NCBI GenBank assembly: GCA_019321725.1
Contig: CM033108.1
Span: forward strand, 13,658,060-13,722,059
DNA from: Paulownia fortunei
Taxonomy: Eukaryota > Streptophyta > Magnoliopsida > Lamiales > Paulowniaceae
DNA: 64,000 nucleotides
Direction of reading: 5' to 3'
In this document: one piece after another, positions 20,871 to 48,600 of the stretch
How positions within the stretch are numbered: position 1 is the stretch's first letter
Layout of the letters: each line of letters opens with the position of its first letter
Made by a program: the position numbers and the translations under genes
The notes under the pieces: generated by a model
Told to the model about the DNA's origin: nothing
Databases searched by the model: none
Seen by the model: only the letters and a program-made list of their open reading frames with translations

Positions 20871-20872
<2 letters not shown>

Positions 20873-20918
<46 letters not shown>

Positions 20919-20920
20919 AC
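20873..20920. repeat. (TA)n microsatellite
   Basis: About 40 bases of alternating T and A in the U5-like end of the A LTR. The same position is expanded to different lengths in the other copies (about 1688-1710, 8748-8762, 42982-43029), so it is an unstable tract of this LTR family. Confidence 0.85.
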
Positions 20921-21012
20921 ATGCACACACATGTACTACCTTGTCAAAATTATTATTATATTAATATCTATATTTAGTAGTGGGGGTGTTACACATGCCT
21001 TTAAGACTTTAG

Positions 21013-27306: not shown

Positions 27307-29590
27307 TCCTTCCCTTCTTATAGAAATTTCATCCCTGAAATTTTACTTACCAAAAAAATTCTAAATATTTAATTATCGTTTTATGCTTGCTTTCCCAAGT
27401 CGCTTATTATGTTGATTAACTTCTCTTCAATACTTTAACTAATGAGATATTGTCATTTTGAAGTTACTTTACATGCATTACTAAAATCTCTATAGGTCTT
27501 TCTTCATATCTTCGACCTCAATTTTGTTTTATTGGTTTCTTCTTCAGTAGATGAGATAGATTCATGCTATACTTTCTTAAAATGAACACATGAAACATAT
27601 TGTGAACTCAAGACATTGATGCAAAGAGGTCGAGTTTACTAGCAATATCCCCAATTCTATCTGTAATGCAAACCACACCAATGTACCTAGGATTAAGTTT
27701 GTATGTAACATCCCTAAATTTATTTATTTTTTGCCCAAGCCGCATAATCCCTTTAATTGGAGACACCTTCAAAAATCTGATCGCCCATCATAAATTGTAA
27801 TGATATTGCTCTTTAATCTGCAGAACTCTATGGTCACATCTAACTAGTTTCCATACATTAGCAATTTGTTCTACAATTTCTATCATTTCCCAATCATATT
27901 AAGCCTAAAAGAACACCAAATTCATTTTTAATAAAATGATGACCTATATTTTCTATCATATAATGCCTCATAGAGAACTATCCCAAGTAACCTTATAACT
28001 GCAGTTACAAGAAATTCCACCCAAGGAAAAATTTTCTCAATTGACATCAATAATCTATTGTACAATCTCTAAGCATATCTTGCAAAGTATAATTTGTTTG
28101 TCCTGGTTGCCCAGTGATGCATGGATGATCACAATACTAAAATATAATTTTATTCCCAATACCTGATGTAAGATCTTCTAGAAAGTGGACAAAAACCTTC
28201 AATCTACATCAGAACCAATAGACAATAATAAATCATAAAGTCTAACCGCTTCCTATACACTTATCTTTCCATAGATTTCCATGGAATACCTACATGTATG
28301 ATGAAATAAAGCGGTAACAACTTAGGAAAATTTTTGACTGAGTATCTAATAATATCACTAACCCATAAAAAGTTTCTTATTTCTATCGTAATTATTGGTC
28401 TTCCCTATTTCAGTACAACCTCAAAATTTTGAATAGTTACAAGAACATCTTCTTAAGAAAATTACCAGTTCCAAAAATAAATATTTATTACATAACCAAA
28501 AGATTGCATTTACTAAATTGAACAAATAATTTTCTACTTCATTAAAATTTCCAAGATCACATTAAAAGGTCAATCATATTTCTCCTCATTGTACACAAAG
28601 ATATCATCAATGAATATCACCCCAAACATACCCATATAAAATCATCAAACACATTATTCATCATGTATATCAAAATAATTAAGGCATTAGTCAGCCCAAT
28701 GGCACAACAAGAAAACCATAATTAATTCAAACTTAAAATCAATCCTCGAGATCACAGTAGCTCCTCTTAATTTATCAAATAAACCTTAGTATGAAAAATT
28801 GTACTTATTACAAAAGTTGTAATAAATAATACATAACCTCAAGATTCATCTTTCTTCTACATGAATATGAAGTGGAGCTTGCTTAGGAGAAGCACTACAC
28901 ATTAATGCCTTGCCCAATATTTTAACAATATTATTAAAGGTTCATCAAATTCCAATAGGTGTATATGATAAACTAAAAGAGAGATTGGATTTGTTCTTAC
29001 AACTATATCCCGGATAAAAGTAGTTGGTTAATCAATAGCATTCCCAAAAACTTCTTTTCAACATGTATCAAGAGATCTGACATCACACAAATGGATTTTT
29101 AGTAAACTTGGTCATTTCTAAAAATTCTAACATAATCCAAAGATCGATAATATCTCTTTCTTACAACTCTCTTTCATGGTAACTATAGAAAATTATAATT
29201 AGACAATCTTCTTTATTTTCTACAAATAGTAGACATTTTACCACTATGGCCTCCATAAAATTTCTAAATTTTCGTCACCTAAAATTTAAAAGTCTTAATA
29301 ATCCTGAAATAATCCACAATGCATAATTGTCAATAAATCAATTAACACAAAAGTTTAGATCCTAATCCTAGCCAATATAACTAAATTAACTTAAAGCTCT
29401 TAAAATCTAATTAGTTGATCTTGAACCTCCAAAAGAAATTAAAACATTGTAATTGACATCATATACATATATATATATATATATCAAGTACCCTATCCAG
29501 TCTTATTGCATACTTAGTGGATAATAGAGAGTATGTAGCTCCAAAGATTGAATCCCAAACATAAATTTTATACCTATTATTGCTGATGAG
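27307..29590 (-). mobile_element. Family-A internal region A2 (pol relic, minus)
   Basis: Minus-strand internal region, continuing at 42733-42907 beyond the nested Athila element. The polypurine tract is at 27307-27320. The integrase C-terminal and core relics lie at about 27450-28290 and reverse transcriptase at about 28380-28950, with the F-I-D-D-I-F-V-Y box near 28615-28590. The RNase H and integrase N-terminal part is deleted at 28286-28293 (see findings). All frames are broken. It is a sister copy of A1. Confidence 0.8.
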
Positions 29591-31197
29591 TGATAAGTGC
29601 ATATTTTGACATATTTTTATATCAAATTCTTTACACTTTTCTTGCTTTATTCTTGTTAATATTATTGTTTTATTAATGTTTTGTGTTAGGGAATAAATGG
29701 AAGCATGTTTCCAGACTTGTGCAATATTTGTAATTTGAGTATAACTTCATGATCAAAATCCCTATGGACCTGAAGCTTGTTGTATTTGAAAGCCAAGAGA
29801 TAGAGGTACAACTGTTATGTTGGAAGCTCAGCCCAATTCAGTCTTGATAATAGCATAAAATTCGTCCAAATAGTTGCACAAAATGGATCACCAAAATTCG
29901 GATCAGAGTTCAGCCCAATATTGACTTATTTCACCAATTCGGTTCTATATTTTGAGCTCAAATTTATTTTGGGCTAAAATTAGGATATGTTATACCCAAG
30001 AGGTAAATAAACAAGTTTACTGAAGACAAGATGGTGTGAAAATATGTCAAAATGGCAAAATCATAGGTTGCAAGTTGCTGCTGATGTTAAAGGATGGCTC
30101 TTGGACATGACTCGGTAATTTGACTATATCTCCTTCATCTGACCACCAAATTTGACAAAAGATATTGAAAATATATCAGCGCTGAAAGATCTATAATTTT
30201 TATTCTTCACATATCTTCAAAATCTGGCTGTATCTGACCGAAAAATGTAATTCAATTCAGTGGGTGAGAATTTTGTGTAACAACTTACCAACTCTTGGCA
30301 ACTAGCATACCACTTGATTAACCCCTCCATTATTTGTTTGGCCTCTAGCTTACTCCAAGTACTATAAATAGGCCATGTATTAAGCTTGTAAGAGGAGGGG
30401 GTAGAGGGTTTTTTAGGCTAAGTTATCTAGTTTGTATGTTTTCTAGTATTGTAAGTTTTCTAGTAGTAATAGAAATACATTCTCTAGTTTCTCTTATATT
30501 TTTAGTCTTTATTACTTTTATTATGTCTTTCTAAATTTCATTTTGCTGAGGAAAAAGAGTGAATCTCTTTATGGAGGATGACAAATGGTTATAAGGGTAG
30601 AAATTGTTTAAGTATGTTGTATTATTATTTTTATTTTTGATCTAAACCCTACTTATTTTGTGGTAATTCTTGATTTGTGTATCTCCAATGGCACAACAAA
30701 TACTTGGGTTTATTTAGCTTATTGTACGGTTTTACCCCACTGACTGCTAATGTGAAATCTTGATTTGTTGTTGATGAAGGTGTACATAAATGCTTGATCC
30801 ATAAATAAGTGTTGGTGTTAAGAGATAATTTGCAATAGTAAGACAATATCATGATTACCTTATTGCATGAGTTACTTGATAATATCTTCCATTGGAACCT
30901 TCATTATGTATGGATTCCAATTGTGGCAATTAATAGAGGTAAAAAGAATAAATAACCATTTCTCTATCCAAAACTCAAGAGTGGATCCCTAATCCTCAGT
31001 ACTTTTATTACTTCGATTTTTCTTTAGTTACATCATACATTAATTGTTCATATATTTTGATTCACATAAACTCCATCTTTTTATAAATATAAACTTGAAT
31101 TCTTCAAACAACTTTCCTGTGGATCGACCATGAACTCACGAGAAATTTATTACTTACTACAACCTGCACTTGGATTTGCAACTTTAAAGTTGTAGCA
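29591..31197 (+). repeat. 5' LTR of the Athila element
   Basis: Starts TGATAAGTGC, ends AGTTGTAGCA, 1607 bp. A TATA box (TATAAATA) is at 30363-30370, in the context ACTATAAATAGG. The ORF on the minus strand at 30649-30852 has a counterpart in the 3' LTR but no recognisable product. Confidence 0.92.
30363..30370 (+). promoter_or_regulatory. TATA box of the Athila 5' LTR
   Basis: TATAAATA in ACTATAAATAGG, the likely core promoter of the genomic transcript. The corresponding site in the 3' LTR (41888-41895) reads TGTAAATA, so the 3' LTR has lost the second base of the box. Confidence 0.6.
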
Positions 31198-31204
31198 AGT
31201 TTTT

Positions 31205-31221
31205 AGCGCCATTGCCGGGGA
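31205..31221 (+). promoter_or_regulatory. Primer-binding site, tRNA-Asp type
   Basis: AGCGCCATTGCCGGGGA begins eight bases after the LTR end. The Athila primer site complementary to the 3' end of tRNA-Asp is usually TGGCGCCGTTGCCGGGGA; the two differences seen are both G-to-A changes, consistent with decay of methylated cytosines on the opposite strand. Confidence 0.85.
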
Positions 31222-31396
31222 AGGCAAGGTAAGTATTCAGGTTTGTTAATATTTTTTCTTTGTAAATATAGTTTGTTTATTTTCTTTATGGATATATGGT
31301 TATATGGCATCGTAGTCATAATTCTCGACGTTTAGTAAGAAATAATTCCGAAACTTTGTTTGAAATTTGTTTGAATCATCTCCACACACTTCCACC

Positions 31397-32580
31397 ATGG
31401 CTGAAAATGAAAATGTCCAGAATGAAAATGAGAATCAACAAGTGCGTACCATGCGTTATTACTTACAACCTCCTCGAAATTCTTCTCCTTCTTATTTCAT
31501 TTTTCCTCTAAATGCAAATAATTTTTTATTCAAGTCAGGTATGATCCCTTTACTTCCTAATTTCCATGGTTTAGACTCTGAAAGCCCTTACTTGCATTTA
31601 AAAGAATTTGATGAAGTATGTGCTACTTTTGATGATCAAACTTACACAAATGAGATTGTTAAGCTCAAATAATTTCCTTCTCTTTAAAAGATAAAGCAAA
31701 AAATTGGCTTAATTCTTTAAAACCTAGGTCAACTGGCACTTGGCAAGAAATGCAAGCTGAATTCTTGAAAAAATTCTTTCCAACTCATAAAACTAATGCT
31801 TTAAAAAGACAAATTCAAATTTTTTCTCAAAATTTGAATGAAGTTTTCTTTCAATGTTGGGAAAGATTTAAAGATTTGTTGAATTCATGCCCACATCACG
31901 GTTTTAAAAAATAGCGTTTAATTAGTTTCTTTTATGAAGGTTTAACTCCTGAAACAAAATAATTTATTGAAACAATGTGTAATGGTGAGTTTCTTGATAA
32001 GGAACCTGATGAAGCCCTAGAATATCTAGATCATTTGGCAGAAAACTCTCAATCATGGCATAGTGTTAATTCTTGCGAAGGTTCTATTAGATCTAATCTT
32101 GCTAATAGTAATAAAGGAAAACATTACCTTAGCCAAGAAGATGACCTAAATGCTAGACTTGCTAGTTTAACAAGAAAAGTTGAAGCCATGGAACTTAAAA
32201 AAGTAAAGAAAATCAAATCTGTGCAAGAGGAAGAAGTTTGTAGCAATTGTGAATATTTGGGACATTCCACTAATGAATGTCCAAACATTCCAGTACAAGC
32301 AAATTTTATGAACACATTCAAAAAACCTTTCCATTCTCCATATTCTGAAACTTACAATCCACAATGGAGAAATCATCCCAATTTCAGTTGGCGAGATGAT
32401 AACCATGCCCAACCACTGCATTCACAAAAACCACCAAACTTTCATTCTTATCCAGCTCCACATACAAAATCCATTGACGAGACTTTGCAAGCATTTATGC
32501 AAGAACAAACAAACATCAATAATCAAATTTCACAAGCTATTAATGAGATTAGAATCACACTTTAAATACTGACAACTTCT
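31397..32580 (+). pseudogene. gag: Athila gag (capsid/nucleocapsid), broken
   Basis: The likely start is ATG at 31397 in CCACCATGG. The first ~90 codons include the Athila capsid block P-L-L-P-N-F-H-G-L and P-Y-L-H-L-K-E-F. A TAA at 31670-31672 and a one-base shift interrupt it. The next frame continues with the W-Q-E-M-Q-A-E-F-L-K-K-F-F-P-T block, then stops at 31912 (TAG) and 31960 (TAA). The nucleocapsid part has one C-x2-C-x4-H-x4-C zinc knuckle at 32239-32280. A further in-frame TAA at 32563-32565 separates it from the protease ORF. Gag would normally form the particle and bind RNA; this copy cannot. Confidence 0.9.
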
Positions 32581-33993
32581 TTGCGTACTCATGAAGGAGG
32601 TAAATTTCCTGCTCAACCTCAACCTAATCCTTCCACTCAGTGTCATGTTTCTTCTTCAGGTGAAAATGCAGTCAAGGAGGCTAATTCAGTTACAACTCTT
32701 TGGAATGGAAAAGTTGTTGACAAGACTATTCATCCCAAGGAGAGAGTTTCTAATCCACCTCCAGAAATAAAAAATGGAAATACTCTTGACGATGAAGGTA
32801 AGTTTGAAGAAGGTAAGTGTGAAAATGATGAAAAACAAAAATATTTAGCTCCAGCACCCTTTCCTCAAAGATTGCAAGCAACTCAGAAATTGAACTCAAA
32901 TGCTGAAATTTTTGAAATTTTTAAACAAGTCAAGATTAATATACCATTGTTGGATGCAATCAAGCAAGTTCCACCTTATGCCAAATTTTTGAAAGATTTG
33001 TGTACAATCAAAAGAAAACATCATGTACAAAAGAAGGCATTTTTAACTGAAAGTGTTAGTTCAATCATTCAACAATTCACTCCACCAAAGTACAAAGATC
33101 TAGGTTGTCCAACCATTTCATGTATCATAGGAAATACTAGAATAGAGCGTGCTTTGCTTGATCTTGGTGCTAGTGTAAATCTTCTACCTTTCTCAGTTTA
33201 TGAACAGTTAGGTTTGAGAGAACGTAAAACAACTTCTGTTGTACTCCAACTAGCTGACCGTTCGATTAAAGTTCCAAAGAGAATAGTAGAAGATGTGTTG
33301 GTACAAATTGATAAGTTTTACTTTCCAGTTGATTTCATTGTTTTGGACACAGAGCCTGTTGCACAAACACATACACAAATTCCTATCATTTTGGGTCGTC
33401 CTTTTCTTGTAACTTCAAATGCTTTGATCAATTGTAGAAATGGTATTTTGAAGTTATCACTTAATATGACTTTGGAACTAAATGTGTTTAATGTTTGTAT
33501 GCAACCTGCAGAAGATGTCGAAGTACATGAAGTGGATTCAACTGAGAAACTTGTTCATGAATACTTTACTACTACTAACTCTTTAGATTCTTTGGAGACT
33601 TGTTTTGAAAGTGAAAGTATTTATAAAAAGGAACACATTAATACTATCTCTGAATTTTTGCAGGTAAAAGAAAAATATTTTTGGAAGCCAAGGTTCGAAG
33701 AACTTTCATTATCAACAGTAAAACCTATTCCATCAAGTATTAAATCTCCCGTGGTTGAATTGAAACCTTTGCCAGTTAATTTGAAATACTCTTTCTTGGG
33801 TGAGAATGAGACTTTTCCAGTAATAATTTCTTTCAAACTCGATCCATCTCAGGAAGTTAAGTTGATCGAAATTCTGAAAATGCATAAGAATGCTTTAGGA
33901 TGGACCATTGCTGATATTAAAGGTTTTAATCCTTTCATTTGCACACATAATATCTATCTAGAGGAAAATGCTAAACCATCTAGAGAAATGTAA
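32581..33993 (+). pseudogene. pol: Athila protease region, open for 470 codons
   Basis: Longest open stretch of the element. A low-complexity link precedes a retropepsin with the Athila-typical active site D-L-G-A-S-V-N-L-L-P; the catalytic Asp codon is at 33160-33162. The flap/C-terminal block I-I-L-G-R-P-F-L follows near 33388. The remaining part leads into the linker before reverse transcriptase (H-K-N-A-L-G-W-T-I-A-D-I-K-G). The stop at 33991-33993 (TAA after S-R-E-M) replaces a codon that is glutamine in related elements. The frame is the same as the gag frame upstream. The protease itself looks intact, but it has no intact polyprotein context. Confidence 0.88.
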
Positions 33994-35337
33994 CGAAGGC
34001 TAAATCCTAATATGAAAGAAGTAGTTAGAAATGAAGTCATTAAACTCTTAGATAATAGAATCATTTTATTCTATTTTTGATAGCAAATGGGTAAGTCTTA
34101 CTCAAGTTGTACCTAAGAAATCTGGAGTTACTGTAGTCAAGAATGAGAATGATGAATTAATTCCAACTTGACTGTTACTGGTTGGCGAATGTGCATTGAC
34201 TATAGAAAACTCAACTCAGTTACTAGAAAAGATCATTTTCCATTACCTTTCATGGATCAAAATTTAGAAAGAGTTGCGAGACACGAATTTTATTGCTTTT
34301 TAGATAGATATTCTGGATATAATCAAATTACAATTGCACTTGAAGATCAAGAGAAAATAACTTTTACATGTCCTTTTGGTACTTTTGCATATCAAAGGAT
34401 GCATTTTGGATTATGTAATGCACCAGCTACATTCCAACGATGCATGCTTAGTATTTTTAGTGACATGGTTGAATGTTTTCTTGAAGTCTTCATGGATTAT
34501 TTTCCTATTTTTGGTAATTTATTTAATAATTGCTTATCTAATTTAGAAAATGTTTTGATCAGGTGTGAAGAAAAGAATCTTGTGCTTAATTGGGAGAAAT
34601 GTCACTTCATGGTAACAACTGGTATTGTTCTTGGACATATTATATCATCAGAAGGTATTGAGGTTGACAAATCTAAAATTGAGTTAATTACCAATTTGCC
34701 AACACCAAAGACTGTGAAGGAGATTAGATCATTTTTAGGACATGCTGGTTTTTATAGAAGATTTATCAAAGATTTTAGTATAATATCTAAACCTTTGTGT
34801 AATCTCCTAATAAAAGACACTATTTTTGAATGGACTGAAAACTGTGAAAATGCTTTTGTTAAGCTTAAAAACATGCTTACGTCTGCTCCAATCATGCAGC
34901 CTCCAGATTGGACTTTACATTTTGAAATAATGTGTGATGCTAGTGATTATGCTGTTAGAGGTGTCTTGGGACAAAGAAAAGATAAAAAGCCATATGTTAT
35001 TTACTATGCAAGTAAAACTTTAAATGGTGCTCAATTGAATTATACAACAACTGAAAAAGAATTACTTGTTGTAGTTTTTGCATTGGATAAATTTCGATCT
35101 TATCTTGTTGGCTTACCAATTGTTGTTTTTAATGATCATGCAGCTTTGAAATATCTTTTGTCAAAAAAAGATGTTAAACCAAGACTGATTAGGTAGATTC
35201 TCTTACTCCAGGAATTTAATGTTACTATTCGAGATAAAAAGGGAGTAGAGAATGTGGTGGCTGATCATTTGTCAAGATTTGTTTGTGATGACTCGTTTCA
35301 AACCACACCTACTAATGACACTTTCCCTGATGAATAA
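33994..35337 (+). pseudogene. pol: Athila reverse transcriptase and RNase H, broken
   Basis: Two frameshifts (about 34070 and 34165) precede an open stretch to 35196. Blocks in order: W-R-M-C-I-D-Y-R-K-L-N, L-D-R-Y-S-G-Y-N-Q-I, F-G-L-C-N-A-P-A-T-F-Q-R, and the catalytic box. The box reads F-M-D-Y-F where the family has F-M-D-D-F, so the second catalytic aspartate is lost. RNase H begins at M-C-D-A-S-D-Y-A and includes Y-T-T-T-E-K-E-L-L. A TAG at 35194-35196 stands where a tryptophan is usual, and TAA follows at 35335-35337. The enzyme would be inactive even without the stops. Confidence 0.9.
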
Positions 35338-36582
35338 CTATTTAATGTTTTTATTTTACCTTGGTTTGCTGACATTGTTAATTTTCTTGTGACAGGAAAG
35401 ATGCCATCGCATTGGAACTCTCAAGACAAAAAAAAGTTTTTGATTGAGGTTAAAAAAATTTATTGGGATTATCCATACCTATTCAAATATTGTCCGAATT
35501 AAATCTTTCGAAGATGTTTGCCTGACAATGAGATAGGTAATATTGTCAAATTTTATCATTCAGAAGCATGTGGTGGTCATTTTTCTATAAAGAAAACTAC
35601 TGCAAAAATCTTACAATGTAGATTTTATTGGCCAACTCTTTTCAAAAATACTTACACTTTCTGCAAAAGTTGTGAAAATTGTCAAAAGTTAAGGTTCTTT
35701 TCAAAGAGAAATATGATGCCCCTATATCCTATCCTAGTGATTGAAATCTTTGACTGTTGGGTATTGATTTTATGGGGCCATTTCTATTATCATTTGGTTT
35801 TCTTTAATATTGGTTGCCATAGATTATGTTTCAAAATGGATCGAGGCAATTCCTTGTCGAAACAATGATCACAAAATAATGATAAAATTTTTGAAAGAAA
35901 ATATTTTAAGTCGATTTGGAATTCCTAGATCTATTATCAGTGATGGGGGGAAATATTTTTGTAACAAAGTTTTCGGAACTTTAATGAAGAAATATGGAAT
36001 CATATATAAAGTTACAACCCCTTATCACCCTCACACAAATGGACAAGTTGAACTTGCAAATAGGGAGATAAAACAAATTTTGGAGAAAACAGTTAACCCA
36101 AACCGTAAAGATTGGTCTCTTAGTCTTTCTGATACACTTTGGGCATATAGAACTATTTTCAAAACATCATTAGGCATGTCTCCTTATAGGATAGTTTATG
36201 GAAAACCTTGTCATTTACCTGTTGAACTTGAACATAAAGCTTATTGGGCAATCAAAATATTTAACTTCAACCTTGATGAAGCTTCAAAATTACGCAAATT
36301 GCAAATCAATGAACTTCAAGAACTGAGAAATGATGCATATGAGAATTCTAAAATTTATAAAGCAAGAATCAAAGATTTTCATGATAATAAAATTTCAAGA
36401 AAAATATTTGAGGTTGGTCAAAAAGTTTTGCTTTATAATTCTCGACTGCATTTGTTTCCTGAAAAATTGAGATCCAGGTGGAGTGGTCCTTTTGTTGTAA
36501 AAAAAGTATATCCTTATGGGCAATTGACATTGAGAATCCTAGAAATGGTAACACATTTAAAGTAAATGGACAAAGAGTTAAC
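35338..36582 (+). pseudogene. pol: Athila integrase, frameshifted
   Basis: Continues the same frame with a TAA at 35501-35503, then the zinc-binding HHCC domain (F-Y-H-S-E-A-C-G-G-H ... C-K-S-C-E-N-C-Q-K, about 35545-35690). A frameshift near 35750-35810 falls around the first catalytic aspartate. The core continues from [11 protein letters not shown] with the second aspartate in S-D-G-G-K-Y-F (codon 35942-35944) and the glutamate in [10 protein letters not shown]. The C-terminal domain reaches about 36560. The last codons of pol are separated from their continuation at 37681 by the hAT-like insertion. Confidence 0.88.
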
Positions 36583-37680
36583 TAGACCTGACCACGGTTC
36601 AGGAACCGCCGGTTACGGTTCCGAACCGCCGGTTCCACGGTTCAAGAAAATCTCGACCTTAACCTTAACCGTCAAGGCCGGTTACGGTCCGGGTTCTGGA
36701 ACTGCCGGTTCCGGTTCTGGTTAACCGCCGGTTTCGACCCTTATATTTTATTTTATTTTTTTAAATTTTTTTGAACTTAAATTTGCAAAAAATATTGTTA
36801 CTTTTTGAACTTAATGAAAAAAAATAAACTTAAATTTGAAAAAAGAAAATAACTAAAATTTAAGCATATGATCCAAAACAAAAGTGACTAAATTAATTTA
36901 TAAAATTTCTAAAAAATATTTTTTCATTTACACTGTATTGATAAAACACAATTTAATAAATTTTAGTTTTTGGAGTTAATATTATCATATAAAATCGATT
37001 AAACATTACAATAATTTAATAATATTAAATGAGAAGTTGGGGAATAAACAGTAGTTATTGTAAAGTAACATTATTAAATATTTTTAAAAAATTATAGATT
37101 TACTTATTATTAAAATAATTGTAAAGTAGCATAATTAGATAATTTCCAAAACTTTATTTATTATTAAGATGAAATGTAGAATGCTTAAATATAGGACTTG
37201 ATTTGTAATTTGCTGAAACTAATTAATTAAATTTAAAGAAGAACACAACACCAATTATATTAATTTTCAGAAACAAGACAAGTAATTTGAGGGGAAAAAA
37301 AATGAAAAAACAAATCATGAGACTTATTTATGCACTTATTCAAAATTATAAACATATGGTTCATTAGCTTAGTTGGTTAGAGTGTTCTATTAATAGTTTG
37401 GAGGTCACAAGTTCAAAACCTATATAACACACTTTTACACTATTTTGATAAAAAAAATTAAAAAAATAAAAAACCGCCGGGTTGGGCCGACGGTTCCGGC
37501 CCGTGGAACCGCCGGGTCCAACCCGGCGGTTCACGGATTAGATGAACCGTAATCGGCCCGTGAACTCACAGGCTGGTTCACGGTTCCGACCCGTGAATCG
37601 TGGTCAACGGGTTCTGACCCGTTGACCACGGTCCGGTCACGGGCCGTGTCCGGTTTGGACCCGGCCCGTGGTCGGGTCTA
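36583..37680. mobile_element. Non-autonomous hAT-like DNA transposon, 1098 bp
   Basis: Terminal inverted repeats read TAGACCTGACCACGG on the left and, in reverse complement, TAGACCCGACCACGG on the right. The flanks AGTTAAC and AGTTAAAC (37681-37688) fit an 8-bp target duplication that has lost one base on the left. About 150 bases at the left end and 200 at the right end are GC-rich tandem and inverted CCGGTTC-like units, and the middle is AT-rich. There is no transposase ORF. Short inverted ends, an 8-bp duplication and subterminal CGG-rich repeats fit plant hAT-type MITE-like elements. It interrupts the end of the Athila integrase frame. Confidence 0.85.
37359..37431 (+). pseudogene. Decayed tRNA-Ile-like sequence inside the hAT element
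   Basis: GGTTCATTAGCTTAGTTGG and what follows resemble plant tRNA-Ile(AAU) along the whole length: an A box (TTAGCTTAGTTGG, TTAGAGTG), an anticodon-loop stretch TATTAATAG, a GGAGGTCAC variable region and a B-box-like GTTCAAAACC. The acceptor and T stems no longer pair properly, so it is not a functional tRNA. It could be a captured tRNA pseudogene or the head of a tRNA-derived SINE. Confidence 0.6.
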
Positions 37681-37852
37681 AGTTAAACCATTTCTAGAAA
37701 ATCAATTTTCACAAGAGGAAATTCTTTTTCTTTCTAACCCTTGTTATGATTAGTATTGTATATACTCATTTTCCTCTGACATTAATTTTTTTTTCTTCTT
37801 CTTTTATTTTTTTCTTTTCTCGGTTAAATGGCAGATAATGGTACTCTGTGGC

Positions 37853-37859
37853 TATAAAA
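37853..37859 (+). promoter_or_regulatory. TATA-like box upstream of the env-position ORFs
   Basis: TATAAAA in GGCTATAAAAGTCG, about 90 bases before the ATG of the broken ORF at 37946. It lies in a pyrimidine-rich stretch (37785-37825). It is a candidate for an internal promoter driving the extra genes apart from gag-pol; this is inferred from the motif only. Confidence 0.35.
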
Positions 37860-37945
37860 GTCGAACTTGTCAGTTTCCCAAACAACTGAAATCTTTGTAA
37901 AAAATTTCTTTGTTTTTCTCATTCTCTTTTCTTGTTCTTTTCAAA

Positions 37946-38505
37946 ATGGGTGACATTTTTCTAACTCTCAAGAAGCGATTTCCTTTTCTTCCTAAAAATG
38001 TAATTTTGAAAATTTATAAAATCAGGATTGAAAGATTGAGGATGCTTATGTATAAGGGCATCCCGAAGGATATACGATGGATAATTGAAGCAAAGGTAAG
38101 GGTAGGTGAGTTTTCACATGAGTTTCCAGATTTGCTTATTAGATACATGTCTGGTTTTGGTAAAAGCACATATTAAAAAAAAAACGAAGGGCTAAAAAAA
38201 TAAAAGTTTGTCATATTTGTGCTAGATGGACTTACAACACAAAGTGTCGTTCTTTAGGAATGATCTCTAAAAATCGAGAAGATAAATTTAAATTCATTAT
38301 GGATGGACTGAGTAAGGAGTCTTTAGATCACATTATATTGACTCTTGAGACGCATTTATGTGGATTGGTACAACGTACAATTCTTGATTTATGAGATCGT
38401 TTTCGAAATGAATATGAGCTTTATAGTCTTGAGAATCTGACATTAAAAGACTCTCTTTGCCAGTTTATAAGAAAACTAGATGGGAAGTATATCCTCGACC
38501 CATAG
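37946..38505 (+). pseudogene. Broken ORF of unknown function in the env position
   Basis: Begins M-G-D-I-F-L-T-L-K-K-R-F-P at 37946 and stays open for 76 codons to TAA 38174-38176. After an A-rich run that shifts the frame, another frame continues from 38179 with K-V-C-H-I-C-A-R-W-T-Y-N-T-K-C and F-I-M-D-G-L-S-K-E-S-L-D-H, has one TGA at 38392-38394, and ends at TAG 38503-38505. The ancestral protein would have had about 185 residues, rich in Lys, Arg, Leu and Ile, with a C-x2-C ... C cluster that might bind zinc. No signal peptide or membrane segment is visible, so it is not a typical env-like protein. I do not recognise it. It lies in tandem with the LOG ORF, about 240 bases upstream. Confidence 0.6.
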
Positions 38506-38578
38506 AGGGCGTTTTAAGCCGTTACTGGACGTAAAACCAGAGGAAGATGTGAGCCACAATCACAACTATATGTACATA

Positions 38579-38584
38579 CACGTG
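38579..38584 (+). promoter_or_regulatory. G-box CACGTG upstream of the LOG ORF
   Basis: CACGTG in TACACGTGTTAG, 160 bases before the LOG start codon. G-boxes are bound by plant bHLH and bZIP factors. Downstream, AATAAATAT at about 38682 could serve as a weak TATA element. The role is inferred; a single hexamer can occur by chance. Confidence 0.3.
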
Positions 38585-38744
38585 TTAGTAGGTAATTTTC
38601 AAATTTCGTATATGTCCTTATTTTCAACCTTTTTGATAAAAGAAAAAGACATGTAATAAATGCATTCCCTGTTCATACCTCAATAAATATCACCGTACTC
38701 ACTCTATTTTTGCACAACTTATTTTCAAAAAAAAGAAAAAAAAA

Positions 38745-39398
38745 ATGGAAGTTTCTTCAACTCGCAAATTTAATTTCATTTGTGTTTTTTATGGATCCAA
38801 TCTAGGAAAAAATGGTGACTTTATAGAGGTAGCCAATAACCTTGGTAGAACTTTAGCAGAAAGAAAAATTCATTTAGTGTATGGGGGAGGCAGTTTGGGG
38901 TTAATGGGGAGTGTTGCTATTTCTGCTTATGTAGGAGGTGTCAAAGTTTTGGGAGTTATCCTAAAATCTTTAATAGTACAGAATATCACAGGTATGACCA
39001 TTGGAGATGAGCTAAAAGTGTCACATATTCAGGACAGAATGCCTAACATGTTAAACAATGCGGATGCATTCATCATTCTACCTGGCGATTTTGGTACACT
39101 GGAGGAATTATTCCAAATTGTCTCTTGGGCACAACTTAACATTCACCAAAAACCTATAGGTATTCTTAATGTTAATGGTTTTTATGATGGTTTGCTATCT
39201 TTTGTAGATCATGCTGTGAAAAAAGGTTTTATTTCAACTTTTGCGAGAAGAATCATCATTTCTGCTCCGACACCTGACCAGCTGATTGATCAACTTCTAG
39301 CATATGTGCCAAAACTTGATCCAACCTTAGCCAATGTGGATTGGTCCAACAGGAACAATGGTCAAAAATGCAAATTGAAATTGACTCTCAATCTGTGA
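38745..39398 (+). CDS. LOG: LOG-family cytokinin phosphoribohydrolase, captured in Athila
   Basis: 217 codons, uninterrupted and without introns. LOG enzymes are cytosolic and nuclear phosphoribohydrolases that release the active cytokinin base from its riboside 5'-monophosphate in one step. Readable landmarks: C-V-F-Y-G-S at residues 13-18, H-L-V-Y-G-G-G-S-L-G-L-M-G at 43-55, R98, P-G-D-F-G-T-L-E-E-L at 113-122, W-A-Q-L-N-I-H-Q-K-P-I-G at 128-139, and the C-terminal block F-V-D-H-A-V-K-K-G-F-I-S to residue 164. The length is normal for the family. The family motif PGGxGTxxE reads PGD-FGTLEE (Gly115 to Asp), and the lysine that usually follows the conserved arginine is Met99, so activity is uncertain. 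Host LOG genes contain several introns, so an RNA-derived capture is likely. The start ATG (AAAAATGG) is the first in frame. It could still be a pseudogene without premature stops. Confidence 0.9.
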   Translation: MEVSSTRKFNFICVFYGSNLGKNGDFIEVANNLGRTLAERKIHLVYGGGSLGLMGSVAISAYVGGVKVLGVILKSLIVQNITGMTIGDELKVSHIQDRMPNMLNNADAFIILPGDFGTLEELFQIVSWAQLNIHQKPIGILNVNGFYDGLLSFVDHAVKKGFISTFARRIIISAPTPDQLIDQLLAYVPKLDPTLANVDWSNRNNGQKCKLKLTLNL

Positions 39399-39606
39399 TA
39401 CTTATTTTTAATGATTTTATCTAATAGTATGTGTGTTTTTTTTTGTTGTTTCATCTTTATTAGCAACATTTCAGGTGATATCTTTCAAACTCTACTTTCG
39501 TATCTATTTTTGACATTGGGGATAATGTCTCGATTAGGTTGGGGGGAGGGATAATTGATATCATGACTTATATATTCAATGTGTGTTTTTCTAGTATTTA
39601 AAAAAA

Positions 39607-39637
<31 letters not shown>

Positions 39638-41097
39638 ATAAATCAAGCGTGTTTTTTATGGGTCCGTTGAAAGCATGAAAAAAGGTGGTTGAGTAAAGGG
39701 TAATTGTAACACTCTTGAGACGATCCTATTTTTTGCATAACATGGCAGGTTTGTAAAGTTTTTAATAAATGTTTGTGAATTACCAATTTTTTTTTTTGAG
39801 TCGTATAGGTTCTTCCAACTTCAATGATTAAAATTAAGCATCAATAATATGGTTTGATTGATGATGGGTGTTGTTTTGGACTTTGATGTTGTTATTTGAT
39901 TAATATATTTTTGCGATAATTATACTCAAATTTTATTTTGCACAAATAGTTATGTTATTTAGTGTGAAGATAATCATGTCCAAAATATATAGTTCTTATG
40001 CCCTTGCTCTAATCATCACTTGAATCTTCAACATGTAGGGGTTGAGTATTAGAACTTTTACTTTTGGTCTGTCAAGGCGAACGACTGATAGTTCACCACT
40101 AGAAAAAATGATTAAGGCATTAGACTTTCTAGCACTATTGTCAAATCAGCTTGTTCCCTATATGATGTTTCAAGAAAACATCCCCCTAGTAAACCACTTT
40201 GAGCCTTAAAATAAATAATTTTTTTTTCTAACCATATCTTTTTACCTAGCCTAAATACACTATTATCCAACCCTTGTTCTAAAAATGATTGGAGTGTAAG
40301 AGACATTCAATTGACAGCTTGAACTTCCAAAAGAAATTCAGGTTGGAATAGAAGATAAGTGTGGGGGAGTTTCTTTTAAAAAAAAAAAAAGTTGCAAAGT
40401 GCTACAAGTTACAAGTAAAAATGAAATGTTGCAAGATGAATAAGAGGGGTCCAATTCAATAACAATAGACCCCAGTGTGAAGTTTGTGGAGTTTGAGAAT
40501 TCTTCATCGATAAATTTTATGTCTCTAATTCCATGAAATTTTTAGAACCATTGTTGCATCCTATTCTTTTATTTCTTAGCTACATCACCACCCTTTGGCC
40601 CAATTACAACCTTTGTTGAAGACCTTTTAATTTCGTGTGGTGCCTTCAGTGTAGTGGAGATTTGCACCAAAGGAAGAGTCTAATATGTTTAACTTTTCTG
40701 TTAGAGATTGGGTGATGATTTTTGTAAGGTTTTATGAGAATTCACTTATTTGAAACATACATAGTTTCATCACTATTGACATTAACTGTCCACACACACA
40801 CTTGAGTATGCTTATTGCGGAAATATATTGATTTTTGAATGATTAAGAGTTAAACTCAACACTTGTTTGATTTTATTTCCATATTACTTTGTTGCTTCAT
40901 GAGAATAAAAGTTGGAAGATAGTTATTATAGGTGTTTGTAGGTATCACTGCTGGAAACCTTCACGAGACTATAACTCGTCCTCTATAGGCCACCTAGGGG
41001 TTTAAAGATTTGTTGCATATGCTAAATGCAATCGTGATTTCCTACGAAAGTGGATTAGTTTATGTTTGTTTTAAGCTTGCTCGAGGACAAGCAAGGG
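39399..41097 (+). other. Athila 3' untranslated region
   Basis: Noncoding 1.7 kb between the LOG ORF and the polypurine tract. It holds GGGGATAATGTCTCG and TTGGGGGGAGGG at about 39518-39550, a phrase I associate with the region after pol in Athila elements; an (AAAT)n tract at 39601-39643; a second polypurine-like AAGTGTGGGGGAGTTT at about 40357-40372; and an A run at 40378-40390. A 64-codon minus-strand ORF at 40112-40306 shows nothing recognisable and is not called. Confidence 0.65.
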
Positions 41098-41114
41098 TTA
41101 AGTGTGGGGGAATT
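41098..41114 (+). promoter_or_regulatory. Polypurine tract of the Athila element
   Basis: TTAAGTGTGGGGGAATT directly precedes the TGATAAGTGC start of the 3' LTR. The upstream phrase GCTCGAGGACAAGCAA is also usual in Athila elements. Confidence 0.85.
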
Positions 41115-42727
41115 TGATAAGTGCATATTTTGACATATTTTTATATCAAATCCTTTATACTTTTCTTGCTTTATTCTTGTTAATATTATTGTTTTATTAA
41201 TGTTTTGTGTTAAGGAATAAATGGAAGCATGTTTCCAAACTTATGCAATGTTTGTAATTTGAGCATAACTTCATGATCAAAAGCCCTATGGACCTGAAGC
41301 TTATTTCATTTGAAAGCCAAGAGATAGAGGTACAACTTTTATGTTGTAAGCTCAGCCTAATTCAGTCTTGATGATAGCAAAAAATTTGTCCAAGTAGTTG
41401 CACAAAATTGATCACCAAAATTCGAATTAGAGTTCAGCCCAATATTGATTTATTTCACCAATTCGGTTATATATTTTGAGCCCAAATTTATTTTGGGCTG
41501 AAATTCGGATATGTTATACCCAAGAGGTAAATAAACAAGTTTGCGAAAGACAAGATGGTGTGAAAATGTGTCAAAATGGTAAAACTATAAGCTGCAATTT
41601 GCTGCTGATGTTAAAGGGTGGCTTTTGGATGTGACTTGGTAATTTGACTATATCTCCTTCATCCGACTGCCAAATTTGACAAAAGATATATAAAAATATA
41701 TCAGCGCTGAAAGATCTACAATTGTTATTCTTCACGTATCTTCAAAATCTGGCTGTATCGGACCAAAAAATGTAATTTAATTCAGTGGGTGAGAAATTTG
41801 TGTAACAACTTACCAACTCTTGGCAACTAGCATACCACTTGATTAACCTCTCCATTATTTATTTGGCCTCTAGCTTACTCCAAGTACTGTAAATAGGCCA
41901 TGTATTAAGCTTGTAAGAGGAGGGGGGTAGAGGGTTTCTTTACGCTAAGTTATCTAGTTTGTATGTTTTCTAATATTGTAAGTTTTCTTGTGGTAATATA
42001 AATGCATTCTCTAGTTTCTCTTATATTTTTAGTCTTTGTTACTTTTATTATGACTTTCTAAATTTCATTTTGTTGAGAAAAAAGGGTGAATCTCTTGATG
42101 GAGGAAGAGAAATGGTTATAAGGGTAGAAATTGTTTAAGTATGTTGTATTATTATTTTTATTTTTGATCTAAACCCTACTTGTTTTGTGTTGATTGTTGA
42201 TTTATGTATCTCCAATGGCACAATAAATACTTGGGTTCATTTAGCTTATTGTATGGTTTTACCCCACCGACTGCTAATGTGAAACCTTGATTTGTTGTTG
42301 ACGAAGGTGTACATAAATGCTTGATCCCATAAATAAGTGTTGGCATTAAGAGATAATTTGCAATAGTAAGACAATATCATGATTACCTTATTGCATGAGT
42401 TACTTGATAATATCTTCCCATTGGAACCTTCATTATGTATGGATTCCAATTGTGGCAATTAATAGAGGTAAAAAGAATAAAAAACTATTTCTCTATCCAA
42501 AACTCAAGAGTGGATCCCTAATCCTCAGTACTTTTATTACTTCGGTTTTTCTTTAGTTATATCATACATTAATTGTTCATATATTTTTTATTCATATAAA
42601 CTCCATCTTTTTAGAAATATAAACTTGAATTCTTTAAACAACTTCCCTATGGATCGACCTCGGACTCACGAGAAATTTATTACTTACAACAACCTGCACT
42701 TGGGTTTGCAACCTTAAAGTTGTAGCA
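41115..42727 (+). repeat. 3' LTR of the Athila element
   Basis: 1613 bp, same termini as the 5' LTR, followed by the duplicated target ATGAG. It differs from the 5' LTR by eleven bases in the first ~200, plus the TATA change noted at 41888-41895. Confidence 0.92.
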
Positions 42728-42732
42728 ATGAG

Positions 42733-42907
42733 TTTGCCTCAACATTATTTTATACAAAATCTTAAAACACATGGCCAATATTATTCATAAAATATAAAAT
42801 GAATTATACAACAAATAAAACTTACTGGCATGGTTGGGCTCTACAAGTTTCAAAGGTCATGTACATGGACAGTCTACAGAACCACAAACGAGGCTCTGAT
42901 ACCACTT
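42733..42907 (-). mobile_element. Leader and primer site of family-A element A2
   Basis: Continuation of the A2 internal region to the right of the nested Athila element. GGCTCTGATACCA at 42892-42904 is the minus-strand initiator-Met primer site (TGGTATCAGAGCC), three bases from the LTR end at 42908. The leader matches A1 8803-8960 in reverse complement. Confidence 0.85.
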
Positions 42908-42978
42908 TGTAACACCCCCACCACTAAATACAGATATTGGTATAACACTAGTTTTGACAAGGTAGCACATGTGTGTGC

Positions 42979-43032
<54 letters not shown>

Positions 43033-45691
43033 CAATTGTAGCACTTTGAGAAATAGTAAAAGTATTTTCTCACATATAACCCTATATATAGAAAAATCAA
43101 CGTTTATATAAAAAAACACAACACCTATCACAATCACGCTATTCTCAAACTTATTTACTATAAAATATCAAGAGTTATATAAAACAGGGCATCCCAAAGT
43201 TATAATACGATAGACTAAAAAATCAAAATAATAGCTTATACTTTCGGAAGAAGTAAGGACATTTTGCATCTTGCAACCCTTTATATATAGATAAAAATTT
43301 ATATAATAATAATGATTGTAAAAATTAGAATATGCCCACAACACAACCCAGCAGGTCGTCATCTATGTGTAGTGATCCTCAGAAGTTTGTAGGAGCTCCA
43401 ACAACTAGCCTAATAACCTTAGAGTCTTAGGTATCACCATGCTTACCTACAATGCATGAAGTCCATGAGCTAATACTCAGTAAGTGAAAATCATGCATGC
43501 TGAAGAGATAACCTAACATATATGCGATGCACCTCTATGAAATCATGTCTAGAATGCAAGCTCTTGGACCGAAATAGTTCATTTAAAATTATTTTCCACC
43601 ACTAGGCTCTTGACCTACCTACTATGCACTAGATAGAGCTCTGAACAATATAAATAATCACATGGCCATAAAAAAATTGACATAGTCTGGGGGCCATCTC
43701 TTGGGATCACCAGAGGTCCACCCCTTGTCTTCCCCTATGATCCTCCAGAAGTCTTCCACCAGCGGCGTTAATAAGGGCAGAGTCAAGTGGTCCACCCTTT
43801 CGTGATCACCAGAAGTACACCCCCTGCAACCCTTATGATCCTCCGAGAAGTAACACTCGCGGTGGCCCAAAATATCAGATAAGCACTCCTCTCATGCCTC
43901 GGCACACTAGTAGTGGCCAACCAAAATATTTTTTTTTCTGAAAATCATGTCTCAAATCATATCATGCATGCAAGAACCTCAACTATACTCATATGTCGTG
44001 CATGGACATATAAATACTCATGAATGGTATGTTCAATATGAAACTCAACATGTTTCAAGAATCATAAAACTTTTAAGGTACATACTAATCATCCAATCAA
44101 TTTAAATACTACGTTCGTGCATTGTAGTTGCAAATGGATTTTCACTTACCTTTGATCAGTTGTGTGTCACTTCTAGGTTTCTTAAGTATTACTCCCCAAC
44201 CCTAGATGTGAAACAATCTATAAAACTACAAGATATCAATTACCATACTCAATTAACAAGTTCATTATACCTAATGTAGTATAAAGGTCTTGAATCCTAC
44301 AATGACAGTTTTGTGCACTTCATGACATTAATAGTTTTGGCACCCTTAAGTATATATTCAATCACTCCCAAATTTTTACCACACTTATATAACATATACA
44401 CAAAAACAACCAGTCATATTATTGCCAAAAATAATGGTTTTAATGCTATAAAACCAGTCCCCTTAACACAGGACAGAATCTGAAATTCGATGGTGACAGT
44501 TTTGAGCATCTCTTTAATTATCATGCCATATTTTAATTCCTAAGATACCCAAACCTATATAAATAATCTTAACTCCTATATAAACACGTTCATGATGATA
44601 AATAAAGGATTTACCCAAGGTTTGTTTTGCATATTTCAAGCTCAATAAACTAGAAATCAGCACATACACAGATTCTGCCCCTTAGTGGTTCTACTATGTG
44701 TTTGCAACCACAAATCATTATTTTATGCATAATAACCCTATGAATAACCTATAACATCATCATGAACAAGATAAGAATTTTAAGAAATCACAAAACCCTC
44801 AAATAATATAAAAATTGATGTCAAAACTATATATGAACCTCACCTAAGCTAGTTTCAGCTTCTATTTGTGATTACTACTTCCTTTTGCTTCCTTTGCCTT
44901 TTTCTATCACTTAGAATCACTTAGAACCAGCTTATAGAGATTTTGACATGAGCTTGGACCTGCAAATGACTGAAAAATGGTTGTGGGTCGTGGGTAAATG
45001 GCTAAGAATGAAGGAAAGCTTGAGGTGGCACTTGAGGTGCTTGCTTAAGCTTGGTAGCAAGCATGAGGTGGTAAGTTGTGGTATAAATCTAACCTTTCAC
45101 CCATATTTCAATCCTATATCAGATGTGTCTTACTATACATTAACTTATTGCATCCTACTTTAATTACCACAAGATCCCATAGAAAATCCATAAGCTAATT
45201 TCCTAGCCGTTCATTAAATTTCTTACCCGATTGTCACCCAATTCTTGAATAATTTTCCATATTAAAAATTATATAATCTTATAAATAAATGAATATTGTA
45301 ATATCACCTTTGAATCATATTATCTTATGTCCAATGTTCCAAATATGTAATTTACCAATATATACTTTTGAAATACTTAGATGAAATCGAATCAAATTGT
45401 ATAAGCTTACTAGTAACATCTTTAACACTTCCAAAATTATAACCTATATATCCCATCAACATTCAATATTGATCAACCTCATTTTCTTATTATTTCAATT
45501 TAATGTTGATTACTTATATTACGATGATCAACAACTAATACCATATGAGATTTTCTAGGAATTTAATGGTCAAATATGATTATAAGGTAAAACGGATCAT
45601 GCCATGCTAGTTTCATTGAAGGCACTTATGAATAACATGTAATGCATAAATCGTATTGGCTAAGTATGTAGTGTCAGACACATTTGTTACG
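42908..45691 (-). repeat. 5' LTR of family-A element A2 (minus)
   Basis: About 2.8 kb, read leftwards from 45691 to TGTAACACCC at 42908. A (TA)n tract lies at 42982-43029 and the minus-strand TATA box at 43103-43110. The outer end reads GTTACG instead of GTTACA, so the terminal base is mutated or the end is slightly truncated. Immediately to the right begins a minus-strand copia LTR remnant that lacks its own end. Confidence 0.85.
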
Positions 45692-48600
45692 CATGGATTA
45701 TAAGTCAAAACCTTAAATGATTCAATAACTATGATCCCATTTCAAGTTCTAATGATTCTTGATGAATCACGATATATCCTGCCTTGGCTAAGGTCTTTGC
45801 ATCATGAACTATGAAAACATAGGAGATTCCCTTATTTAAAAAGACAAGTGTTGAATTCTATGTTGGCCACTGACAAACCTCCATGCACATCGGTGCATCA
45901 CCCAACATATCCCCATTATGATTGTCAAGCAATTAGAAGATATATCAAAGTGTTGTAGGTTGTACACAAGGGTACCATCGTGTAACACCCCCATTCCTAC
46001 ACAACCATATATATTGTATAATTTGACATGATAGAACCTGTGTGCATGCATGGAATATTTTTTTTAACACTTTAAGTAAAGATAAATCACTTCTTACATG
46101 CACAACCCTATTTAAAATACTTTATAACACATGTCATGTATATAGCAGGATCGGTATTTATATAAAAGCACAACACCCACAATGACCCAATATTTACATA
46201 CTTATTTACAGTAAAGTTTTAAAAGCGAAATATAGTACCAGTCTAAAAATATAATACAACAGACTCAAAATATAACAAGCCAACAAAATAGCCCAACAGG
46301 TCGTCATCCATGTACACACTCTCTCAGACACCTGCTGGAGCTCCAGCCGCTGCCCAGCCAATAAAAGATGCTTCAGGTATTGTCGTACTCATCTACAATG
46401 CATAGACTATATGAGCTAACGCTCAGCAAGTAAAGATTATGCATGTCAAAGAATAATCCACAATATCAAGTCATGCAACTCAAAATGCTATGCTCACAAT
46501 GTAATTTTATGCATCAAAATATTTCTCTCAAAATCATTTCTTTCTTGGGCCCCTGACCAACGCTACTATCCCATGCACCGGAAAAGAGCTCTGTACACCG
46601 CCATAATCCAATGGCCAATAATCATATAAGCATGAAAATCCATGCATACTCATACGCATGCAAATCCATGCACGCGAACCTGCAAATCCATGCATAAAAC
46701 CATGCAAATCCATGCATGCTTCGGTGCACTAGTAGTGATCAGCAAAACATTTTCCTTCCTCTGAACCATGCCGTGCAATGCAAGATTTATCACAATACTC
46801 GTATATGATGCATGCACGTGCCAATGACAATGCCCATGTATGTATGCTCAATGGAGAGCCCTCTACTATGCACATATGATTTATGATATTACATATAATT
46901 CACACATCTACTATGTCTATGCATTGTGGTTGCAAATGAATCTTTACTTACCTTTCACTTGATTGGTGGCTTAGTCTAAATTTGTTTAGTATTCCTCTCC
47001 AACCTTAGATGTAAAATAGCCTGTAATATTACCCAACATCAAGCACCATTCCCAATTTGGCAAGTTGAAAGCACAAAATCTCATACTATACCTTAAACAC
47101 CAAGCCATAAGCTAACAATCAAGCTTTCACAAACTAGAACCCAATATAGCCCCTCAAATACCTCAATTTCTCATCTTAAATTCATGAAAACATCATGTAA
47201 TTGAAGTATTATAACTCTAATAGCATGTACCTAATTGTTAACACTCAATAGCAACATATCAAGGTTGAAACATGCTAAGTGATCAAATGTGGCAGATTCA
47301 CATTTTCATATTTTCTTGCTGTCAAGTTTAGTTGCATGATAATTTTAACATCCCTAAGCATATCCAATCACTCCCAAATTTTTACCACACTTATATAACA
47401 TGTATATAAATGTAACCATATCATATAATTGCTAAAAATCACGGATATAGCTTCCCAAGTTCAGCTCTCTTCACGACATACTGAAACAGATTGTTTCCTA
47501 CCGTGACAGTTTTGCACACTTCATGACATTAATGGTTTTGGCACCCTTAAGTATATTCAATCACTCCAAAATTTTCAACATACTTAGATAAAATATATAA
47601 GGAGACAACCAGGTCATATTATTACCAAAAATAATGGATTTAGCTCCCTTAATTCAGTTTCCTTCACAGCACACCAAAACAGATTTTGCTATTTTGGTAG
47701 TTTGAGTGTTTCTCCAATATCATTCTCTATTTCAATTTCCAATTGATAAAACTTCATTCCAATACTCTTAACTCATATATGGTCATGTAAATGGTAATAA
47801 TTATAGGTTTTATTCAACATACCATACACTTTTGAAGCCTAAAACACAAGAAAACAGTAAGATGACAGTTTCGGCCACAAGTATTTCCTATTAAGTGTTT
47901 GTCATCAAAAACCCTTTCTTTGTGCACCAAAGTCTAACTAAAAACTTACTAACACTTTTATAAGAGATATTGAAAGCTTAATAAACAATAAAACCATTCA
48001 TAATAATCTGAAAACTAAAGGCAAAACCGTAGATAAGTGTTACCTATGCAGATTTTGAGGTTAACTTGATGGTAATAACTTCTCCTTTGCTTTTCTTGCT
48101 TTTATTTCAACTTGGAATCAATTTGGATCACTTGGAGACCTTAAGGTGTGTGTTTGGAAGATGAAAATGGCTGAAATGAGGGTCTGGTCGTTGCTTAAGG
48201 GTGAAGGGTTTGAGGTGTTAGCTTGAGATGTTAGCTTAAGCTTAATAAGAAAGCATGAGGTGGCAAGTAAATGGCAAAATCTGATTTTCTCCCTTATCTT
48301 GCAGCCCTAATCTTGTGTGTATCACCTATTTTTATTTGGTTTCAACCTATCTTAATCACCATTCATTCCCATAGGTAATTCCTATGTCCGTTCATTCGAT
48401 TTCCAAACCGATTCGCATCCGATTCTTAAAGAATTATCTAGTTTGCATTTCTAAAATCATATGCACATATGGGCCTTGTAATATGACACTTAAATCATAT
48501 TATATCATGTCCAATATTCCAAGTATTCTAATTTACAAATATATACTTTTGAAATAACTTGATCAAATCAAATTAAACCGTATAAGGTTACTAGTAACAC

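Follow-up and report, generated by a model that had tools for sequence, protein, structure and literature searches.

A LOG-family accessory gene of an Athila-like retrotransposon lineage with a changed pocket and a C-terminal EAR-type motif

The element at the locus and its two accessory genes

The window analysed here is a stretch of 64,000 nucleotides from Paulownia fortunei (assembly GCA_019321725.1, contig CM033108.1, positions 13,658,060 to 13,722,059 of the forward strand), and coordinates of the element below are positions within it. Sequence analysis revealed a Gypsy-type LTR retrotransposon (29591–42727) with the gene order PR-RT-RH-IN, all on the forward strand. Its 5′ LTR (29591–31197) and 3′ LTR (41115–42727) have the termini TG...CA, are 93.6% identical over the 1614 columns of the pair alignment (K2P 0.064, divergence 6.4%), and are bounded by a 5-bp target-site duplication, ATGAG, at 29586–29590 and 42728–42732. 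With two alternative substitution rates, the K2P distance places the insertion at roughly 2.5 to 4.6 million years ago. The empty site was also recovered: a paralogous, uninterrupted target lies near 21.26 kb in the same window, 8 kb upstream of the element, and the joined element flanks were 84.9% identical to it across the junction (635 columns; a one-base gap at the junction is a base omitted when the flanks were joined). Large diverged direct and inverted repeats flank the element (20200–27200 and 42728–48900), one of which supplies this empty target site.

A tRNA-Asp-like primer-binding site (31204–31221) is followed by ORF fragments for the protease region (32581–33990; Pfam PF13650, E 1.3e-6), for reverse transcriptase and RNase H (34168–35193; PF00078, PF17919 and PF17917) and for the integrase core (35810–36562; PF00665, E 7.4e-10). 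The primer site resembles the tRNA-Asp site typical of Athila, and the protease is likewise Athila-like. Athila elements have no chromodomain after the integrase; in the 251-aa integrase ORF of this element, which is a fragment, rve was the sole domain at E ≤ 0.01. The polypurine tract (41102–41114) precedes the 3′ LTR, and a second, near-identical polypurine stretch about 750 bp upstream of that LTR (40358–40374) may be an internal priming site.

The gene nearest the 3′ LTR is an ORF of 217 codons (38745–39398, forward strand), which runs from ATG to stop without interruption or intron and matched Pfam PF03641 (Lysine_decarbox) with 121.2 bits (E 4.4e-35) against a curated cut-off of 27. The initial annotation had described an intact, intronless LOG-family gene between the integrase and the 3′ LTR of an Athila element flanked by target-site duplications, and both the gene and its placement were borne out. 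Its likening of this position to that of the env-like gene of some Athila elements holds for the 3′ accessory place, but less well in that a second gene, ORF-X, also lies between integrase and LOG. Host plant LOG genes generally have introns. A run of A precedes the ATG, and none follows the gene. From the substitution and indel rate of the element's own LTRs, the probability that a 651-bp ORF survives intact by chance is about 0.17, and the intactness of this copy alone is thus not more than chance, as the initial annotation had cautioned.

The closest solved relatives of the window LOG are AtLOG3 (2a33, the best, E 2.4e-58) and AtLOG8. An AlphaFold2 model (pLDDT 80.7) has the LOG (Rossmann-like) fold with a TM score of 0.94 against 2a33, normalised by target length, and its best PDB matches were AtLOG3, AtLOG8 and bacterial LOGs. 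Residues 202–217, which include the C-terminal tail, are predicted to be disordered (pLDDT under 50), as would be expected for a short linear motif.

ORF-X (37946–38505, forward strand) is broken in the window by a frameshift and stop codons, and was recognised from its reading frames, from homology to a predicted Acer protein (P0257) and from a PF01623 match in another copy, L093. Open copies have 185 codons; a motif-based script identified 8 such copies among 20. Two of them were scanned, L093 (locus positions 5341–5898) and L108 (5342–5899), and scored 25.1 and 25.4 bits against PF01623 (Carla_C4; cut-off 20.9) over residues 66–99, a basic stretch with a Cys cluster. PF01623 is a carlavirus nucleic-acid-binding protein family. 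The cut-off was reached neither by the broken ORF-X of the window (12.6 bits) nor by Acer P0257, a prediction in which the flanking part of ORF-X is conserved and the Cys cluster is absent. Comparison of ORF-X with solved structures gave no match below E 0.8.

Copies in Paulownia and relatives in other plants

A PF03641 profile search of the 509-Mb P. fortunei genome (1247 contigs) gave 2486 first-look candidates, of which 150 were scored, all above the cut-off. The genome therefore holds at least 150 LOG matches, and the window copy is far from the only one; matches occur on every one of the 20 largest contigs (C1–C20, 15.8 to 32.1 Mb) and on small contigs. With a host LOG protein as query against the same genome, the 150 rows that were scored lay at 44–53% identity, and none of these 150 resembled a host gene.

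Twenty of the 150 scored copies, spread over contigs, were inspected with 10 kb of context each. A downstream LTR and ORF-X were found in 20/20, integrase and protease each in 18/20, and reverse transcriptase in 17/20. In all 20 the downstream LTR was about 92–95% identical to the 3′ LTR of the window and began 942–1795 bp 3′ of the LOG stop, which was set at locus position 6795 for every copy; a LOG gene lying outside the element was ruled out on this spacing. A processed-pseudogene insertion private to the window copy, unrelated to the element, was likewise excluded, since the same gene occupies the same place in 20/20 copies and the A run stands before the ATG and not after the gene.

These 20 copies, 40 more and the window copy make up a set of 61. 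In it, 37 copies were free of stops and frameshifts, an over-estimate because the choice of copies followed a ranking by LOG score; a frameshift was found in 13 and a stop in 15. For the family, intactness (37/61 in this biased sample) and the constant position in 20/20 copies are more than chance, and the caution about chance survival applies to the window copy only.

A protein search with the window LOG gave 3320 relatives. The best 120 were Paulownia proteins with near-copies (89–93%), followed by proteins of Rehmannia, Reevesia, Orobanche and Populus; among them Reevesia had dozens of loci, and one Orobanche cluster had 244 members. With a Xanthoceras protein as query, the best 120 matches included at least 14 proteins from Xanthoceras and 3 from Acer. 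In Acer, gene model P0307 joins a gag/PR region (46% to window positions 32479–33105, E 1e-49) to LOG, and P0257 joins ORF-X (58%, E 1e-33) to LOG; in Xanthoceras, P0013 and P0242 fuse a protease linker with LOG. The Athila-like association, partly in the same gene order, is therefore seen in predicted genes of both genera. The gene models P0013, P0014, P0241, P0242, P0257 and P0307 combine retroelement pieces or two LOG copies within one LOG-like gene. For Reevesia, Orobanche, Rehmannia and Populus, we infer the element context from copy number and clade membership.

For phylogenetic analysis, 56 of 309 rows remained after exclusion of near-copies, rows with many gaps and proteins longer than 265 aa, and the long-branch row P0319 was then removed. 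In the tree of these 55 representatives, built on 176 columns with the pocket columns excluded, 43 element-type rows split from 12 host rows with support of 100/100, the two group names having been set after viewing a quick tree. Within the element-type clade, 39 rows with an altered pocket and P0256 formed a 99/95 branch, outside which the Xanthoceras/Acer type fell. Grouping the 39 altered-pocket rows together was not rejected by the AU test (p 0.37), a result that does not by itself show a single origin of the altered pocket. The unchanged pocket of the Xanthoceras/Acer type had at first pointed to an independent LOG capture there, an idea that was set aside; one origin including these genera is preferred because of the 100/100 clade and a tail stub, DWS...KKRR, common to both types. 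The carrier genera belong to Lamiales, Malvales, Malpighiales and Sapindales, and the capture must therefore be old, or the gene has moved between hosts.

No element-type LOG copies were found in viral contigs. A search of bacterial and archaeal genomes gave 395 loci, the best 80 of which were one plant-like contig in a Mycobacterium draft, L001 (NZ_LZIL01000012.1), and 79 loci with bacterial titles. L001 is a 4.1-kb contig of plant-like DNA with an element-type LOG 99% identical to P0074, and its presence in the draft is likely contamination; ORF-X and the gag/PR stretch were searched for in it and neither was found.

Selection, pocket residues and C-terminal tail

Comparison of the window LOG with that of L001 (59% protein identity, 216 codons) gave dN 0.31 and dS 2.6 by NG86, and 0.29 and 1.5 by LWL85. 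The resulting omega, about 0.12–0.19, lies well below 1 and is rough because dS is close to saturation. Together with the number of matches, the constant position and the single clade, it agrees with the proposal of the initial annotation that a LOG gene joined an Athila element and spread; the capture is old and shared with other plants, and did not happen in this element itself.

Among the 61 Paulownia copies, singleton variants were close to neutrality, with 48 synonymous and 93 nonsynonymous changes and 7 stops (omega-like ratio 0.87), as were variants seen twice (12, 29 and 4; 1.09). Variants in three or more copies comprised 26 synonymous and 32 nonsynonymous changes with no stops (0.55, binomial p 0.018), and those in six or more copies 12 and 10 (0.37, p 0.018). 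For the latter, the synonymous to nonsynonymous ratio was 12:10 in the true frame, compared with 7:33 when both wrong frames were counted (Fisher p 0.004). The difference between singletons and widely shared variants was a trend and not significant (p 0.20 for three or more copies, 0.094 for six or more). In the first 21 copies, RT variants leaned in the same direction as those of LOG and IN variants did not, with few variants in all. This pattern is consistent with, but does not prove, selection on the LOG gene during the mobile phase of the element, followed by decay once a copy has inserted. The element LOG is an accessory gene present in many copies, and it bears signs of selection.

In the LOG of C. 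glutamicum (CgLOG), Arg99 and Glu122 are proposed to be catalytic, Met96, Lys100 and Glu121 contact adenine, and the presumed prenyl site consists of Met96, His97, Lys100, Glu125 and Trp129, which are identical in AtLOG3, OsLOG and CpLOG (PMC4979012). The pocket residues of the window LOG are, in order, Ile, Gln, Arg, Met, Glu, Glu, Gln and Trp; at CgLOG positions 96, 97, 100, 125 and 129 it has I, Q, M, Q and W for Met, His, Lys, Glu and Trp, and thus does not match the cytokinin-LOG pocket. All 61 Paulownia copies have Arg, Met, Glu and Gln at the four tallied pocket and catalytic positions. In the PGGxGTxxE motif, PGGFGT is found in 56/61 copies, and the window copy has PGD for PGG in the phosphate loop.

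Across plants, the equivalents of Lys100 and/or Glu125 (C. glutamicum numbering) were absent from 148/165 element-type LOGs, whereas both were kept in 155/155 host LOGs; type was assigned here by similarity to references picked from the tree, and the host sample, a subset of plant LOGs, consisted of the best LOG3/LOG8 matches and neighbours of the Xanthoceras query. The 17 element-type proteins that kept both residues were 11 from Xanthoceras, 2 from Acer and 4 others. Five of 326 rows had been dropped for a gappy core, and all five were element-type with a canonical pocket and without the tail motif, which speaks against a repressor role; with them included, Lys and Glu are kept in 22/170 and altered in 148/170. 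Substitutions varied by lineage, Lys being replaced by Met, Ile or Leu and Glu by Gln or His, also by G. Two exceptions are P0256, with canonical pocket and tail, and P0291, which retains Lys. Universal pocket loss had seemed to hold in the first search (117/120 rows without Lys and Glu), and was reduced to 148/165 after exceptions appeared in the third. The catalytic Arg was present in 157/165 and the catalytic Glu in 162/165 element-type LOGs, and most retained PGG.GT. With AtLOG3 and AtLOG8, which are plant LONELY GUY proteins, the element LOGs share the fold and, in most members, the PGG.GT..E motif and the catalytic Arg and Glu; they differ in the mostly replaced pocket Lys and Glu, in a new C-terminal tail and, here, in lacking introns.

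This tail, KCKLKLTLNL in the window (39366–39395, forward strand), combines basic residues with LxLxLxL, and its end, LKLTLNL, conforms to the EAR motif, defined as LxLxL or DLNxxP in PMC9956375, where LxLxLxL forms, mostly C-terminal, are also described. Towards their end, element-type LOGs have a shared Trp, then a linker that varies, a basic stretch and, at the C-terminus itself, LDLxLxL or a variant, whereas host endings are various. LxLxL within the last 12 residues was found in 118/165 element-type proteins (118/170 with the dropped rows) vs 0/155 host LOGs, and the basic cluster in 146/165 vs 1/155; an ungapped LxLxL was present in the aligned tail columns of 59/61 Paulownia copies. Among 33 representatives with no more than 80% identity to one another, entropy was 0.8–1.9 bits at the Leu positions vs 2.9–3.6 in the linker (−16 to −12). 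The tail is degraded in several proteins from Orobanche (IDAFLSL, VDTFLSL), and Xanthoceras/Acer proteins, with their canonical pocket, stop just short of the Leu repeat (KKRRLA, KRRRLD).

Two known proteins offer a comparison. Arabidopsis NIMIN1 ends in LDLNLAL, the same shape as the element LOG tail (PMC9956375), and the downy-mildew effector HaRxL21 recruits TOPLESS (TPL) through a C-terminal LMLTL, with which the element LOG shares its C-terminal Leu-x-Leu-x-Leu (PMC7446885). The element protein differs from both in being borne by a retrotransposon on a LOG scaffold, and its EAR-type motif is a candidate site for corepressor binding.

Plant retrotransposons with extra ORFs are common, and the roles of such ORFs are mostly obscure. 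Steinbauerova et al. in 2011 (Genetica) are said to have described two Athila-like elements with an extra ORF similar to LOGL4. Gypsy consensuses from P. trichocarpa and from two species of Citrus have been published as carrying a YgdH (LOG-type) domain, 'in line with' Steinbauerova 2011 according to that report (PMC9289625), and these share with Paulownia a LOG-family gene in an Athila-type Gypsy element. A LOG gene in an Athila-like element is therefore known anatomy, contrary to the initial annotation, which knew of no description. The section of the Citrus and Populus report on this domain mentions neither a pocket change, an EAR-type tail, a single clade nor carriers in Lamiales or Malvales, and the report has 0 mentions of EAR motif, TOPLESS or prenyl (PMC9289625). 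It does describe Gypsy elements of orchids that carry an ORF for an AlkB m6A demethylase, which is likewise the gene of a cellular enzyme that became fixed in the element as an additional ORF; these differ in the enzyme, in being found in only two Phalaenopsis species in that screen, and in having in vitro activity shown (PMC9289625). Among the titles and abstracts listed from the open-licence PMC literature we found no description of the tail, of the pocket change, of corepressor use by elements or of a carlavirus-like ORF in such elements. The one element clade, the pocket change, the EAR-type tail and the carlavirus-like ORF-X are apparently new.

Possible roles of the LOG-fold protein

The explanation that we hold most likely, at a probability of about 0.5, is that the element LOG is a repurposed accessory protein which recruits a TOPLESS-type corepressor via its tail. 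An Athila-like LTR retrotransposon lineage would have taken up the coding sequence of a host LOG in a single, ancient event and retained it as an accessory gene at the 3′ side. The protein would, in most of the lineages sampled, have kept the LOG fold and the catalytic Arg and Glu, lost the adenine/prenyl pocket residues and so changed its job, and gained a tail in which a basic stretch, a putative nuclear signal, precedes LDLxLxL or a variant matching the EAR motif. It may then enter the nucleus, where the tail would recruit a TOPLESS-family corepressor and shift host transcription (of defence, silencing or cell-state genes) in the element's favour. The tail could instead serve dimerisation or another role.

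The initial annotation had proposed that the gene might raise cytokinin in host cells. That the protein is still a cytokinin-activating phosphoribohydrolase, a local rise in cytokinin keeping element-active cells dividing, would suit the retained fold, the catalytic Arg and Glu, the PGG.GT motif of most element-type LOGs and the unchanged pocket of the Xanthoceras/Acer lineage. The LOG of M. marinum differs at three prenyl-site positions and perhaps makes other cytokinins (PMC4979012). Wheat LOGs sharing the critical residues differ in activity (PMC11593424); pocket residues are therefore an imperfect guide and do not settle LOG activity. Against this stand the loss of one or both pocket residues in most element-type proteins, the Met and Gln in place of Lys and Glu in every Paulownia copy of the set, the PGD of the window copy, and the near loss of activity on alanine replacement of AMP-binding or catalytic residues of CgLOG, S19A excepted (PMC4979012). 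Cytokinin activation is the weaker reading because the pocket is changed in most lineages and an EAR-type tail, absent from the 155 host LOGs, has been gained, and judged from the residues we regard it as unlikely. A corepressor-recruiting accessory protein would appear to fit these features better.

It is also rather improbable that the altered pocket accepts a different N6- or ribose-modified nucleotide, for which the protein would serve as enzyme or sensor while the tail would only localise it. Conservation of the catalytic and phosphate-binding residues, with family-specific alteration on the base/prenyl side, is what this predicts, but the pocket varies between lineages of the clade (M, I or L; Q, H or G), which suggests relaxed constraint as much as new specificity, and the substrate is still hypothetical. 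That LOG is a processed pseudogene carried as a passenger without function is very improbable: the window copy could be intact by chance, the singleton variants look neutral and their contrast with shared variants is a trend only, but the gene is conserved across distant plants, omega is low between the window copy and L001, high-frequency variants lean synonymous in the true frame only, and the new tail is conserved beyond its variable linker.

On the preferred reading of a corepressor-recruiting protein, a recognisable host enzyme has long been kept by the element, its substrate pocket has gone in most of the lineages sampled, and a motif for interaction has been added; should the tail bind corepressors of the TOPLESS type, such elements would share a trick with some plant pathogens. 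More tentatively, the two accessory genes might form a host-manipulation cassette, in which ORF-X supplies a carlavirus-like nucleic-acid-binding protein and the LOG-fold protein with its dismantled pocket recruits TOPLESS through the EAR tail. We know of no other retrotransposon that hijacks plant corepressor machinery, and such a cassette, if real, would be the first known, resembling some pathogen effectors in this respect.

Some element-type LOGs are annotated as cytokinin enzymes (in Rehmannia, Populus LOGL10 and one Orobanche row), by which counts of the LOG family can be inflated.
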